From: Candidatus Sysuiplasma acidicola
GTDB taxonomy: Archaea > Thermoplasmatota > Thermoplasmata > Sysuiplasmatales > Sysuiplasmataceae
Reading direction: 5' to 3'
Length of the DNA: 51,665 nt
NCBI GenBank assembly: GCA_019721035.1
Contig: JAHEAA010000015.1
Coordinates: forward strand, 1 to 51,665
The notes beneath the pieces were generated by a model. That model searched no databases. It was not told the origin of the DNA and saw only the letters and a list, made by a program, of their open reading frames with translations. Made by a program: the position numbers and the translations under genes. Positions 25,056 to 31,191 of this stretch are shown here, one piece after another. The number at the start of each line of letters is the position of its first letter. Position 1 is the first letter of the stretch.

Positions 25056-25757
25056 TCAGAATACTTCCGAGCCGGAATGCACCACTATGCCATCTCTGGT
25101 TATGCTGTATGGCTTGATCCTTCTTGAATGCCCGACGCCGCGCATTTTCACAATCCTTATAGTCAGCTGCTGTTCCGAGGCGTCCTTGGACTCGACGCTC
25201 TGCAGGAGTATCACGCCGTCGACCGTATATTCCACCATCCCGTCTCTGGATGATACGGGATGATTTTCATTGACCTCTGAGGTGAGCAATGCTCCTGCGC
25301 CGCTTTCCCTGATGAGGTTGCAGAGTGTGAACAGTCCTGCCCGCTTCTCCGCATCGCTATCATAAAGCATCGTGAGAAGTGATACGGAGTCCAGGACGAC
25401 TCTCTTTGCACCGAAATTCCTGATAAATTCAGGGAATTCGCTCTTGATTCGCTCTATAGATGTCCTGGTGTTGTACGGCTCCAGCCGAACGAGCGAGAGG
25501 CGTCCCTCGCTGATGTGGGTGGAGAGATCCCATCCGTACGAACCCGCATTCTTGAGTATTGACTGTTCATCCTCTTCGAGCGAAATGAATATGCACTTTT
25601 CGCCGGAATTGAGTCCCTTCAGCAGATATTGAAGAGCAAGCGTTGTTTTCCCCGTTCCGAAAGAACCGAGAACCGCCGTTATGGAGTTTGCAGGGAGCCC
25701 TCCGCCGAGCATTTCGTCCAGGCCGTCAATGCCAGTTGCTTCCACAGCCCCTTGCAT
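25056..25757 (-). CDS. KaiC/RadA-like ATPase with intact Walker A
   Basis: 233-residue RecA-superfamily ATPase of the KaiC type (single domain). The start EATGIDGLDEMLGGGLP is the KaiC signature. The Walker A GSFGTGKTT lies at 31-39, and a KaiC-type CIFISLEEDEQSIL follows. The Walker B is in RVVLDSVSLLTMLYD. The Arg-rich RIVKMRGVGHSRRIKPYSI near the end is the usual KaiC-family terminal block. Its ATG overlaps the upstream stop as TGATG at 25757, so it is coupled to the degenerate paralogue. The frame remains open to 25916 inside that gene, which I discount. Such proteins often act in signalling or as partners of other proteins. Confidence 0.88.
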   Translation of the reverse strand: MQGAVEATGIDGLDEMLGGGLPANSITAVLGSFGTGKTTLALQYLLKGLNSGEKCIFISLEEDEQSILKNAGSYGWDLSTHISEGRLSLVRLEPYNTRTSIERIKSEFPEFIRNFGAKRVVLDSVSLLTMLYDSDAEKRAGLFTLCNLIRESGAGALLTSEVNENHPVSSRDGMVEYTVDGVILLQSVESKDASEQQLTIRIVKMRGVGHSRRIKPYSITRDGIVVHSGSEVF

Positions 25758-26596
25758 CAAATCCTCTCCGCATCTATGACGACAAGACCGCTCTGGGATG
25801 TCAGTGTTGTGGCAAACCTCGCTATTCGCTGTTCGTCCAGGTGAGGCATCAGGCTCACAAATTTTGATATGTATATGTAACGCTGTCTCTTGCTGCTGTT
25901 GCTGTTTCTGCTCCATTCAAAGACCAGCACGCCGTCGACGCTGTCTATGATCATCTGCTCCTTTCTCTTCTCCAGTATCCCCTCAGTCAGCAGTATGTAT
26001 ATCACGCCCTTCCATTTCTTTGCCATCCTCTGCATGCCACGCAGCATTGCCACGATGTCCATTATGTCCAGACTCTCAGTGAGAAAAAGGTCAGTGAGCG
26101 AATCGATTATTATGAAGGCGCCGTCTGCCTCCCGGTCCATGAAATCGACCAACGAATCGATCAGCCCTTTTCCCCTCTTTCTGAGCAGCCCGCCGTCATT
26201 GCCTATCCAGCTTGCCGGAACGACGGATTTTTCGAAATAATACTCTGAAAAGTCAGTGAATTTAACGTTCTTCTCGAATGCGTCGTGGAACTCATCGTTG
26301 AACGAAAAAAGTATCTCCTGCAGTATCTCTTCCTTCGGCTTGAAGAACGTGACGTAGTGCATCTTCAGAGGGAGTTTCCCCTGTGCGGCCTTGTCACCCA
26401 TGAGATAGCGGATGGAATCCGGCCTCTCCAAAGCAAGCGAAATTTTGGAAGCCGACGTGTAAGCGAATTCCACGAAACCACTCCCCACGTCGCCAAGTAG
26501 CAGTACTACCGATCCCGGAGGAAGCCCGCCATCAAGAATAGAGTCAAAATCTGAAACACCTGTCGGTATCCTTGCACTTCGCGCATCCAATCCCAT
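25757..26596 (-). CDS. KaiC-like protein with degenerate Walker A
   Basis: 279 residues with the KaiC N-terminal pattern IPTGVSDFDSILDGGLPPGSVVLLLGDVGSG at 11-40. The P-loop reads GDVGSGFVE instead of GxxGxGKT/S, so the lysine and hydroxyl residue that bind phosphate are missing. A Walker-B-like GAFIIIDSLTDLF is present, and the rest of the RecA fold is recognisable. An insertion around residues 75-140 (LMGDKAAQGKLPLKMHYVTFFKPKEE onward) is larger than in its partner. It is probably unable to hydrolyse ATP, and may form a mixed complex with the active paralogue. Leaderless-type promoter at about 26622-26632; divergent from the giant repeat protein. Confidence 0.8.
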   Translation of the reverse strand: MGLDARSARIPTGVSDFDSILDGGLPPGSVVLLLGDVGSGFVEFAYTSASKISLALERPDSIRYLMGDKAAQGKLPLKMHYVTFFKPKEEILQEILFSFNDEFHDAFEKNVKFTDFSEYYFEKSVVPASWIGNDGGLLRKRGKGLIDSLVDFMDREADGAFIIIDSLTDLFLTESLDIMDIVAMLRGMQRMAKKWKGVIYILLTEGILEKRKEQMIIDSVDGVLVFEWSRNSNSSKRQRYIYISKFVSLMPHLDEQRIARFATTLTSQSGLVVIDAERI

Positions 26597-26718: not shown

Positions 26719-26730
26719 TGTTTATACATA
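26719..26730 (+). promoter_or_regulatory. TATA-like box for the giant repeat protein
   Basis: tgtttatacata, centred near 26725, predicts transcription from about 26750. The mRNA would carry about 65 nt of leader before the ATG at 26818. Confidence 0.45.
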
Positions 26731-26765: not shown

Positions 26766-26817
26766 TGGTCAGATTCGTCATGGTGGTTTGCTCGTGACTG
26801 GAAATTACTTCGGCAAT

Positions 26818-29800
26818 ATGAAACTCGGCAAACAGCTCACTGAGAAGGCCAGAGAAATTGCCCAGGAGAAGGAGGAAGCGGAGGCGAAGGTAGCGGAACT
26901 CGATGAGTATGCCTCTATCTGTCTCAGACTCGGTTTCAACTCGGTCAAATTCAATGAACTTTCAAAGAGTGCGAGGGAAAAGCTCCAGGCAATGGATTGC
27001 CGCGGATGCATTTCCGATGCATCTCTCGCAATTTCAACTCTCATCGATGAGCTGAATCATATGTTCCGTTCAAGAATCGATTCCACGGTAAAGATTCTCG
27101 ATTTTCTTGGATCTAAAGGATCGAACGTTGATCATCTGAGTGGTAATCTGAAAGATGTCCGCTCATTGCTGGAAGAGGGTAAATTCGAGAAGGCAGATGC
27201 ACTGTTGACCGAAGTCTGGTCGCGCGAAGAAAAGAACATATCGGAACTCTACTCGGTGGAGTTCTCAAAGGTGCAGAGAACGATGGTTGAGGCTAAATCG
27301 CACGGCATGAACCTCGAAGGTGTTGACACACTGCTCACCGGCGCCAGGAACGAGATGACCTCAAACAATTTTGAGAATGCATTCAGGCTGCTTGACGAAG
27401 CTGCCGCGTCAATCGTTTCGAAATTCAGGGGAAACACCGAAGCTCAGATGCAGTCGATCTCCTCAAAAATCGAAATATCAAGGCAATTCGGGCTCGGCAC
27501 ATCATCTCACAAGGAGAGACTCGATCAGATAAAAGCGCTGCCAGCCGAGAAGAGATTCGGCGAAATCCAGTCTCTTCTGTCCTCGCTCAACAGGGACATT
27601 GATCACAGGCTAAGGAGAGCGTTCGAAGTCAACATAAAGACGGTGCGCTCGGACATGCTCAACAAGATGCTCCCTCCAAGCGTAATCGGCACTGCTTCTT
27701 TTCATCTGAAACAGGCAGAGCAGATGCTGTCTGAGAACGACTTTGAAAAAGCATATACGACACTCAAACAGGTGGAGGGGGAGCTGGAAAAGGCAAAATA
27801 CGATTTCATCGCACGCATACTGCTCAACGGCAAGAAATACATTTCAGATGCAATCAGAAGCGGAGCCGATATTACCTCCGTCAATGAACAGATTAAACAG
27901 GTCAGGGAGCTGATGAAGAGGCGCCGGTTTGACGACGCAGTCAAAACGGCTGAACTCGCAAACGATGAGGCAAGGAAGCTCTCGGAGCAGGTCATGCAAG
28001 CGTCGGAGCTTATGAAGACCATAGAGACGGAATATGCAATAGTCTCTGCGCGGATAGCCAATTCCGTGGATATGAGCATAAAGTATGCTGACGCAAAGCG
28101 CAGGTATGAGCAGAAAGATTTCCAGGGCTTCGTCAACGAGGCCAACCTTCTGGTTTCGGAAATGCATGCGATGCTGGAGACATTTTCGACGAGCCAGATC
28201 GATGGACTCGACAGAAAGATTTCTGCGCTGGAATACCTGGGCGCGGAAACGCTCGAGCTCAACAAGCTTCTTGAAAATGCCATCTCACTCGTTAAGAACC
28301 GGGAATATAACCGGTGCCTGGGTATCACTGTCAAAATGGAGGAAGAGGTCGACCGGGCACTCCTTCAGCTGAATACATCGTGGATGAAAAAGGCAAAGGA
28401 AGCAGCTGCTGCTGCATCAGGAAACAGGAGAGAGCGACTCGAAAAACTGATGTTTAACGCAAACGGCCTTGAGGAAAAGGAAGAGTATTACAGATCTGCG
28501 TGCATCGCTAAGGACGTCGTAGACTGGTCGAGCAACGGCGATGTGTACAGAGTAAACTCGCTTGTTCAGCGGACGAGGCGGCTGATGTCAATTGTTCCGT
28601 CTGTTTCCAGTGGCGTCGTCGCAAGCATGATAGAAGGAGCCGAAAGAAACCTCGCCATTGACGTTGAATCTGCGCTGAAATCGGCAGGAGAGGCCCACGA
28701 TATAATGTACGGTCTGCTCACCGATTACTTCACAAACGAAATGTCTGAACTGATGGGCATGGTCTCCGCATCAAGGCGTAAGAAGGTGGAGATCGGGTAC
28801 GGGTATAATCTCATAGGAAGAGCGCGTGCTGCGTTAAAATTTGAGGACTTCGAGACTGCTACAAAGATGGTCTCAATCGCCAGGGAGGAAATACACTCGA
28901 AGCTCAAACGTGTCGAAGAGATCGAGGCCGGCCTCGAAAGGGCCGAGAAACTGTTCGCGGAAGGAAGGCAGACAGGCAATAATCTGCAGGACGTGGAGGA
29001 ACTCATATCCGCTGCCAGATCCTCCATCAAACACTATGACTATGCTACTGCGGGCAGGATGGTCCTGGAGATACAGGAGAAGCTGGAAAAAGCACTAGCA
29101 CCGAATCTTGCCGCCAGGGAGATACTGGCAATGAAATCTCTCCTCCAGCTCGCCGGAACGCTGTCCCTCGATACGACAGACTTCGAATCGATGAAGAACG
29201 ATGCAGTGGCACTCATGCGCGAGCGCGATCACTACAATGCACTACTCCTTTCGAGGAAGGTGGTCAGTGATATCGAGGCAGTTGTTCAGAACGCCATAGA
29301 CAGCGCGATAAAAGCCATCGGGGCCGACAGCACAAGGGCTGAGATGGATGGTATCGACGTCAAACTCGTGGAATCAAGGCTCGAGAAGGCCAGGGAATTA
29401 CTTGCGCAGAAACGTTATGAGCAGTCGTTCAACAGTCTGAGTCTTGCAGACAAGGAACTTGACTTTTCAAGGAATACGGTTGCAGAGTCTGCCGTGGCCA
29501 TGCGCACTGCGGAGGAGTTTGTTGAGCATATGGACGAACTTGGCATCATAGAGAGTTCTGCGATAAGCATGTTGAGACAGTCCAGATCGCTCCTGAACAA
29601 CGAACAGCATCTACTCGCTCTCCAGACAGCGCAGAAATGCATCGAAATATGTGCCGAAATGCTGAGGGCGAAGGGTCCGCAGATGCTTATGCGCTACGCG
29701 GAGACTTTAATGCCCATTGTGCCTGATGAAGACATGGAAGGCGCGAAGGAGAACATACAGGCACTGAAGCCTATCCTTGCGGCCGGTAAGCCGGAAGGCG

Positions 29801-31191
29801 CGTCAAGACTGCTATCCATCAAGGAATACTGCGACAAGGTAAAGCTGCAGGAAGAAATGTCGAAGAGAACGCTGGAAGTCACGGCATCGAAAGTGGATTC
29901 CGTGCGCCAGCAGGGCGTCGACACATCCACACTTGATGCGGAAATCGATGACATGAAGAAGCTGCTAGAGTCAAGAAGATACCGCGAGGTAATCGAGAAG
30001 GGTCTTCGCATCGAGCAGATTATGGATGAGCTCCAGTCAGACAGCAAGAGGGCAGGGGAGAAGGCTGCCGCGCTCGAACAGAAGCTCAACTCTTATGAGG
30101 AGATCGGTGTCCAGGTCAGGGAATGCAGGGAGATGGCGGCAGGAATCGCAGAGGCCATGTCTGCCGGCAAACCGGTTGAGGCACTCACGCTCATTGCAGC
30201 CTGCGACAGGAAGGCGGAAGAGGCGATCAACAGCACGTGCCTTTCAACACTCAATGCCTTGGAGAAGGCGGGAAGAGCTGCGGACGAACTAGGTTTGGAA
30301 TTCAGGCAGGGCATCACGGAACAGTCGAAGGAGGCAATGATGGAAGGACGACTTTTCGATTCGCTCTCTCTGAGCTTCAACGGTCTCAAGGATCTGTCGT
30401 TTGTCATACTGGAAACGCTGCAGGCTGCCTTCAACAGAGGACTGGAGGGGATCGACTATCCTGAGGCTCTTCGAACTGCCGCAATGAACCGGCTGGATGA
30501 ACTCATTTCAGACCAGCGGTATGACGCGGCGATGGCATATCTCAGGGAAGTCAGGGAACAGGCATCCAGAAAGGCCGTGACAGCAGCTGCACTCGCGCCG
30601 CTACAGTCTGAGTATCAGTCTCTTTCACAGATCCTGCGCGGTGCCGGCATTAACATGCGCGCATTCGAGAGCAAATTCAATACACTGTTCTCCGATATGC
30701 CGGAAAATGCGCCTGCGACTGCAGCACAGCTTATCGACGATATGAAGAAGCTTCGGAACAGTATGCTTCCATCATTTTCGGTTGAAGAAATCAGGGGAAG
30801 CGCATCACCCATGATCGCTGTGCGCAACAGGGGTCGTGCGGTCGCTCTCGGCGTATCCATTGAAGTGAAAGGTCAGTCGTTCAGCATGAACGATGAGGTT
30901 GGCAATATGAAACCCGGTCAGGAAAGGCATCTGAATATCTCGCCGTCCGCGACCGGAGATGTGAAGGTGAGCGTTAAGGCCCGCAGTCTCGTAGACAGTG
31001 AGGAACATGTGTACAGCAGACTCTTCAGGGTGGAAGGCTCATCGATAGTGAGGGTGAGGATTTGTGCGCACTGCAGGGGCAGATTGCGTGAGGGAGTGCA
31101 GACCTACAATTGTAACTGCGGTAGAGAATACCACATCCCCTGCTCCTCAAGGCTCAAGGCATGCGAATGCGGCCTTCCGATAGGCGCTTAA
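26818..31191 (+). CDS. Giant helical-repeat protein with C-terminal beta domain and RING/PHD-like zinc cluster
   Basis: About 1457 residues (counted from the ATG at 26818; the frame is open to a TTG at 26788). Almost all of it is helical repeat. A unit of about 62 residues contains a pivot of the form (K/R/N)(F/Y)xxA, seen near residues 61, 123, 185, 247, 309, 371, 435, 497, 557, 616, 678, 742, 805, 867, 931, 992, 1055, 1119, 1180, 1235 and perhaps 1295. Examples are EEGKFEKADALL, SENDFEKAYTTL, KFEDFETATKMV and ESRRYREVIEKG. Many units also have a Gly-plus-polar turn before the next helix. A beta-rich, CARDB/Ig-like segment spans about 1325-1410. The last 45 residues hold a zinc-type cluster: Cys 1416, 1419, 1432, 1434, His 1439, Cys 1442, 1449, 1451. 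There is no signal peptide or membrane span, so it should be cytoplasmic. It is divergent from two KaiC-like genes. No described family recognised; it could be a scaffold. Confidence 0.85.
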   Translation: MKLGKQLTEKAREIAQEKEEAEAKVAELDEYASICLRLGFNSVKFNELSKSAREKLQAMDCRGCISDASLAISTLIDELNHMFRSRIDSTVKILDFLGSKGSNVDHLSGNLKDVRSLLEEGKFEKADALLTEVWSREEKNISELYSVEFSKVQRTMVEAKSHGMNLEGVDTLLTGARNEMTSNNFENAFRLLDEAAASIVSKFRGNTEAQMQSISSKIEISRQFGLGTSSHKERLDQIKALPAEKRFGEIQSLLSSLNRDIDHRLRRAFEVNIKTVRSDMLNKMLPPSVIGTASFHLKQAEQMLSENDFEKAYTTLKQVEGELEKAKYDFIARILLNGKKYISDAIRSGADITSVNEQIKQVRELMKRRRFDDAVKTAELANDEARKLSEQVMQASELMKTIETEYAIVSARIANSVDMSIKYADAKRRYEQKDFQGFVNEANLLVSEMHAMLETFSTSQIDGLDRKISALEYLGAETLELNKLLENAISLVKNREYNRCLGITVKMEEEVDRALLQLNTSWMKKAKEAAAAASGNRRERLEKLMFNANGLEEKEEYYRSACIAKDVVDWSSNGDVYRVNSLVQRTRRLMSIVPSVSSGVVASMIEGAERNLAIDVESALKSAGEAHDIMYGLLTDYFTNEMSELMGMVSASRRKKVEIGYGYNLIGRARAALKFEDFETATKMVSIAREEIHSKLKRVEEIEAGLERAEKLFAEGRQTGNNLQDVEELISAARSSIKHYDYATAGRMVLEIQEKLEKALAPNLAAREILAMKSLLQLAGTLSLDTTDFESMKNDAVALMRERDHYNALLLSRKVVSDIEAVVQNAIDSAIKAIGADSTRAEMDGIDVKLVESRLEKARELLAQKRYEQSFNSLSLADKELDFSRNTVAESAVAMRTAEEFVEHMDELGIIESSAISMLRQSRSLLNNEQHLLALQTAQKCIEICAEMLRAKGPQMLMRYAETLMPIVPDEDMEGAKENIQALKPILAAGKPEGASRLLSIKEYCDKVKLQEEMSKRTLEVTASKVDSVRQQGVDTSTLDAEIDDMKKLLESRRYREVIEKGLRIEQIMDELQSDSKRAGEKAAALEQKLNSYEEIGVQVRECREMAAGIAEAMSAGKPVEALTLIAACDRKAEEAINSTCLSTLNALEKAGRAADELGLEFRQGITEQSKEAMMEGRLFDSLSLSFNGLKDLSFVILETLQAAFNRGLEGIDYPEALRTAAMNRLDELISDQRYDAAMAYLREVREQASRKAVTAAALAPLQSEYQSLSQILRGAGINMRAFESKFNTLFSDMPENAPATAAQLIDDMKKLRNSMLPSFSVEEIRGSASPMIAVRNRGRAVALGVSIEVKGQSFSMNDEVGNMKPGQERHLNISPSATGDVKVSVKARSLVDSEEHVYSRLFRVEGSSIVRVRICAHCRGRLREGVQTYNCNCGREYHIPCSSRLKACECGLPIGA

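Follow-up and report, generated by a model that had tools for sequence, protein, structure and literature searches.

What does a gene encode when most of its length goes into one helical unit repeated in tandem, and what might such a protein do in an archaeon? The question is raised by a stretch of 51,665 nt from Candidatus Sysuiplasma acidicola (contig JAHEAA010000015.1 of assembly GCA_019721035.1), called here the window, which is contig 15 of a source genome of 1.97 Mb (G000). An earlier note on this DNA, made from its letters alone, had read the gene as an old, diverged array of about 21 copies of a unit of ~62 residues, kept by structure. In this study, we provide support for that array from profile comparison, AlphaFold2 prediction and a survey of 120 relatives within the class Thermoplasmata (f-numbers below denote families of these relatives), and on balance we favour the view that its product, hereafter the giant, is a long, usually single-copy cytoplasmic scaffold with multiple binding sites.

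Period and units of the repeat array

In the self-similarity of the single sequence, lag 62 ranked top of all lags from 20 to 419, followed by 124 and then 374, and its value was reached at no lag in any of 1,000 block shuffles. A profile of 31 family members gave z = 10.1 at lag 62, 6.3 at 124 and 6.1 at 374, together with 5.5 and 7.0 at lags 186 and 188, 5.0 and 5.2 at 248 and 250, and further harmonics at 307-312; neighbouring lags were mostly flat, the exceptions being 64 and 126 (z about 5), as expected from the 64-residue gaps between units. The period of ~62 residues proposed in the earlier note thus withstood the internal-repeat check on the translation, which returned a significant 62-residue repeat. 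Leave-one-out scoring placed 21 units, in line with the number first proposed, 20 of them at z 4.4-8.8 and unit 16 (residue 972) weakly, at z 2.4. The unit consensus is EEAKKLGIDVSEAEELLEEAKEALEEGDYEEALELAEEAKEELEKALEEHVEERIEEAEKEI, with the highest information at Y/F29, A20, G7, A32 and L17. In 19 of the 21 units the xFxxA pivot that had first drawn attention to the array is position 29 of the unit; most pivots are F, Y or H, and A is commonest at +3. The gene and its parts are as follows.

26794..31191, forward strand: whole gene, 1,465 aa plus stop (open reading frame list and translation)
26794..26913, forward strand: N-terminal capping segment, residues 1-40, with conserved L11, K13 and A19 and a single long helix from residue 10
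26914..27843, forward strand: units 1-5, residues 41-350, starting at 41, 103, 165, 227 and 289, exactly 62 residues each; helix pairs H51-65/H69-107, H113-127/H131-169 and onward likewise
27844..28764, forward strand: units 6-10, starting at 351, 415, 477, 537 and 596, with gaps of 64, 62, 60 and 59
28765..29709, forward strand: units 11-15, starting at 658, 722, 785, 847 and 911 (leave-one-out scoring and model)
29707..30762, forward strand: units 16-21, starting at 972, 1035, 1099, 1159, 1215 and 1279 (leave-one-out scoring and model)
30775..31035, forward strand: immunoglobulin (Ig)-like or CARDB-like beta sandwich, residues 1328-1414 (AlphaFold2 strands, PF07705, Foldseek)
31063..31170, forward strand: C4HC3 RING-like zinc finger, C1424 C1427 C1440 C1442 H1447 C1450 C1457 C1459

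AlphaFold2 was run with the family alignment on two fragments, residues 1-1158 and 847-1465, with a mean predicted local distance difference test score (pLDDT) of 83.7 and 88.6, respectively. Nearly every unit was predicted as a helix of ~15 residues followed by one of ~39, so that of the two or three helices per unit initially suggested the model gives two, and the prediction consists of regular helix pairs with a 62-residue period, not of irregular coiled coil. Unit 16 has the lowest sequence score, yet its helix pair is predicted; unit 11 holds EIGYGYNLIGRARAALKFEDFE, a strongly family-conserved stretch; unit 21 is shortened, its final helix stopping at residue 1323. Past the array, the model shows an eight-stranded beta-rich domain and then a small zinc-finger-like end.

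Distribution and constraint in Thermoplasmata

The giant was matched in 90 of the 120 class relatives, mostly as one long orthologue per genome with few fragments or weak paralogues. Six members of the window's own family, 41-53% identical to the window protein, align over 1,465 columns with zero gaps, and the orthologue in Candidatus Sysuiplasma superficiale (L069) shares 53% identity. Class-wide, at ~16% identity, the unit model recovers about the same 21-unit pattern in most families, with gaps of 62, 62, 62, 62, 62, 64, 62, 60, 62, 59, 64, 63, 62, 64, 61, 64, 64, 62, 62 and 60; f26 gave 22 or 23 unit matches, and f9, f13 and f23 are too diverged for a full count. The initial reading as an old array kept by structure is supported. 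Homologues also occur beyond Thermoplasmata, some of them far longer (3,155 aa).

A scan of named genomes matched near relatives alone, and the class-wide alignment held no sufficiently conserved stretch. In two f4 loci, L059 and L060, stops break the frame of the giant (922+528 and 725+404+294 aa), by decay or assembly errors. A few copies of the 62-residue unit are also present in zinc-ribbon proteins of the window genome (for example L118 658-2247, 530 aa, and L119 1024-1881, 286 aa), which resemble the giant in matching the solenoid profile and in carrying zinc ribbons at one end, and differ from it in having few units and different zinc ribbons. The solenoid profile together with several CARDB-like domains was likewise found in other proteins of 1,500-2,400 aa (G030:C36, G055:C66, G020:C3, G422:C7, G047:C8 and others).

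Start codon and C-terminal domains

Both ends of the gene differ from those first assigned. The reading frame is open from TTG 26788 to the stop at 31191, and the in-frame peptide VTGNYFGN directly precedes ATG 26818, the start proposed in the earlier note. Orthologues of the same family and beyond begin at the matching upstream site with LTG, VTG or VAG (LTGNYFG, VAGNYLK, LSGKYLK), and their conserved N-terminus, YFG/YLK..LxKQLxEKAKE, begins 5' of the ATG; we therefore consider GTG 26794, where the sequence reads VTGNYFGNMKLGKQL, the likelier start, and ATG 26818 is probably internal by 8 codons. The TATA-like TTTATACA at window 26721-26728, ~66 nt 5' of GTG 26794, is a possible promoter; a promoter and terminator scan of the window was uninformative for an archaeon.

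At the other end the array had been drawn to 31000, when in fact the reading frame extends to 31191, its final ~140 residues forming not further repeat but the Ig-like domain and the zinc finger. Of 27 family members, 9 matched PF07705 (CARDB; best 7.4e-07), the window protein itself not being one of them, and Foldseek with the C-terminal model returned mainly Ig, FN3 and lamin-tail folds at E 0.004 or weaker. The eight zinc ligands, in cross-brace order, are invariant in all 27 aligned members; Prok-RING_1 (PF14446) was matched in 22 of the 27 (best 3.4e-10), several orthologues (among them the giants of G018, G009, G022, G030 and G025) passing its curated cut-off and the window protein falling below it. 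The giants of f2, f4, f7, f11, f12, f15, f16 and f22 close with a basic tail, KK[RK][VL]AL[KR]I (KK[RK]VALKI), which is unique to giants among all open reading frames of the fetched loci and follows linkers that vary widely in length and are sometimes proline-rich; this tail looks like a docking peptide. Neither these C-terminal domains nor the upstream start, the class-wide conservation of unit number and spacing or the unit in zinc-ribbon proteins had been anticipated.

Comparison with known families

Sequence searches of Pfam, NCBIfam and PDB with the whole protein and the unit consensus found no family that covers the unit, which agrees with the initial impression that no named family has such a period, and Pfam and NCBIfam gave no catalytic domain in the giant. 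Local matches of the unit consensus to 55 unrelated families (DUF1771, MIT, HEPN, TPR and others) were set aside as artefacts, the consensus being an idealised helical sequence. The giant shares with TPR and other alpha-solenoids a helical hairpin, a GD-Y/F-xx-A turn, small residues on the second helix and the tandem arrangement; however, the TPR period is 34 residues against 62 here, where one helix alone takes ~39, and the window protein scored 11.4 bits (E 0.58) with TPR_6, below the cut-off of 26.3.

A long alpha-solenoid with a RING-like finger at its end is also found in the HOPS/CORVET subunits Vps8/11/18/39 and in alpha-COP, where the solenoid is followed by a C-terminal RING, that of alpha-COP matching PF14446 weakly (PMC4678705). 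The giant, unlike these, has no beta-propeller and places an Ig-like domain between solenoid and finger, and the likeness is an architectural analogy only. Its finger follows the C-C-C-C-H-C-C-C ligand order of Prok-RING_1 and of RING-CH/PHD-type fingers, but differs in a very short spacing of about 6 residues between the sixth and seventh ligands, and any ligase function it has is putative.

A probable scaffold and its limits

The helix pairs would stack into a single long alpha-solenoid whose surface may bind several partners, with the Ig domain, the finger and, in many lineages, the basic KK[RK]VALKI tail serving as putative docking modules at one end, so that the giant would work as a ruler-like assembly platform and not as an enzyme. 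That its length is fixed points to a role for the spacing between the putative binding sites. Inspection of the sequence, with no predictor run, reveals no obvious signal peptide or membrane segment, and a cysteine-rich finger would fit a cytoplasmic location. We consider a scaffold of this kind reasonably probable.

Several results weigh against it. Neither f6 nor f17, clades with many near-complete genomes, has the giant, so it cannot be essential throughout the class. Its finger is likewise dispensable in some lineages, since the giants of f20 and G047 (f21) lack it and those of f9 lack both finger and Ig domain. The predicted template modelling scores (pTM) of the two fragments were low (0.34 and 0.47), leaving global curvature and shape uncertain; of the long solenoid or rod first imagined, the regular chain of helices is confidently predicted while the overall shape is not. 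Among solved structures, Foldseek found no solenoid resembling it (best E 0.35; none below 1e-3).

Neighbouring genes and candidate partners

The candidate partners are SMC-ScpAB, KaiC-type ATPases and the ubiquitin-like (Ubl) pathway, each of which we treat as a rival reading; the likelihoods given for the SMC, E3 and KaiC roles are those of sub-cases overlapping with the scaffold reading. In the window's family (f1), FchA, FTCD and Hel308 lie downstream of the giant, and two KaiC-like genes diverge from it.

25757..26596, reverse strand: KaiC-like protein with a degenerate Walker A (GDVGSGFVEF), divergent from the giant
25056..25916, reverse strand: KaiC-domain ATPase (TIGR03880 KaiC_arch_3, above cut-off), divergent from the giant

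One orthologue of the degenerate protein was found in 45 of 60 relatives, and in another family, too, it lies beside the giant (47% identity); in G014 this orthologue adjoins smc, and in G027 it is near smc. A Ubl cluster is encoded on contig 5 of the source genome (L083 4861-7002), comprising a ThiF-type E1 of 266 aa, a Ubl of 80 aa ending in PDPEGG, an E2-like protein of 162 aa with HPN and a Cys at the catalytic position (HPNICPPEDGGMVC), and a JAB protease of 176 aa. E2 was detected in 56 of the 120 relatives; two matches (G021:C1:1628513 and G031:C1:2565344) score far higher and are more eukaryote-like, which may reflect contamination or transfer.

The giant might be an accessory solenoid subunit of archaeal SMC-ScpA(-ScpB), with a role like that of the HAWKs of condensin and cohesin, which are HEAT repeats (PMC7055376) and which it resembles as a large single-chain helical solenoid. 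The giant lies downstream of, and co-directional with, smc, scpA and in part scpB in seven families (f14, f18 with 4 genomes, f21, f23, f64, f65 and f66), scpA or scpB not always being recognised in the open reading frame table of these loci; in two f9 genomes the smc cluster converges on the adjoining giant, and the orthologue of the KaiC-like neighbour adjoins smc in f8 and, in f10, is separated from it by about 4 kb. SMC, ScpA and ScpB, as well as HutH, were assigned by curated models. However, hutH (histidine ammonia-lyase) converges on the other side of the giant in all seven families but f23, and also in f12; it is kept as faithfully as scpB even though hutH and the giant are hardly likely to be functionally linked, and gene order, which may merely be an old arrangement, is by itself no proof of an SMC link. 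In addition, the gaps between giant and scpB measure 135-201 nt, in the window genome smc does not share a contig with the giant but lies on G000:C6, f6 and f17 have SMC but lack the giant, and in contrast to the HAWKs the giant has no HEAT signal, the window protein matching no HEAT family and only one of 31 members giving a weak HEAT_Nup120 match. On this record an SMC subunit seems somewhat unlikely. The bolder proposal that the giant is a dedicated SMC-ScpAB solenoid partner with a RING-like finger, HAWK-like from an unrelated 62-residue repeat and possibly coupling the Ubl pathway to chromosome proteins, we regard as unlikely. Among the neighbours, a protein of ~517 aa (c4) considered as a paralogue of the giant proved to be histidine ammonia-lyase, and the 1,194-aa open reading frame that adjoins the giant at locus L116 runs antisense to smc.

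Alternatively, the giant could be an E3 scaffold of the Ubl system, its RING-like finger recruiting the E2 of the operon and its solenoid holding substrates. A giant RING protein is a tempting E3 because the Ubl cluster of the genome has no RING gene; the finger is closest to Prok-RING_1, a small RING protein serves as E3 in the Caldiarchaeum ubiquitin-like cascade (PMC5654768), and in f7 the giant diverges from a Ubl-E2 fusion (c32) in 4 of 5 loci (L050, L051, L053 and L055), the next gene (c31) being weakly CDC48_N-like. Against this, presence of the finger in the giant does not follow presence of E2 (10 of 22 families with both, 8 with RING only, 1 with E2 only and 3 with neither; p = 0.59): RING giants occur in f4, f12 and f13, where no E2 was detected, while f20 has E2 and a giant that lacks the RING, and f6 has E2 and no giant. 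Two of the f7 fusions (L050 and L055) carry Met at the position of the catalytic Cys, and many other proteins of these genomes have RING-like fingers. On balance, an E3 role is decidedly doubtful. As a platform for the adjoining pair of degenerate and active KaiC-like proteins, the giant would be a signalling scaffold; the pair, divergent from it in f1, is upstream and co-directional in f12 with a 44-nt gap, in f3 and f19 orthologues of the degenerate member are found at a distance of about 8 kb from the giant, and the two co-occur across the 60 genomes (p = 2.7e-05). This correlation is lost once the two clades that have neither, f6 and f17, are removed (p = 0.48), and in most families the genes are unlinked, hence we hold a KaiC platform to be improbable. 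A last reading, a SbsC/spectrin-type rod in the S-layer or otherwise outside the cell, was suggested by the top Pfam repeat match, SbsC_spectrin-like (PF22360), a helical repeat model that also has 62 positions (E 0.0016). That match, however, scores 19.6 against a cut-off of 26 bits, covers 37 positions (5-41 of the model) in a single place and was found in only one of 31 members, and unlike the S-layer protein the giant has no apparent export signal and bears a zinc finger of cytoplasmic type; a rod of this kind is very hard to credit.

Significance

The 62-residue helical repeat is apparently undescribed so far, and among the papers searched there was none on the giant or on ubiquitin-like operons of Thermoplasmata. 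Copy number in tandem repeats commonly drifts, and a unit number kept across an archaeal class is unusual for them. The neighbours of the giant suggest specific links to chromosome organisation and to a Ubl system whose operon shows no evident E3. If either link is true, the giant would represent a new type of subunit in systems that are used to address the origins of eukaryotic condensin and cohesin or of ubiquitin ligases.

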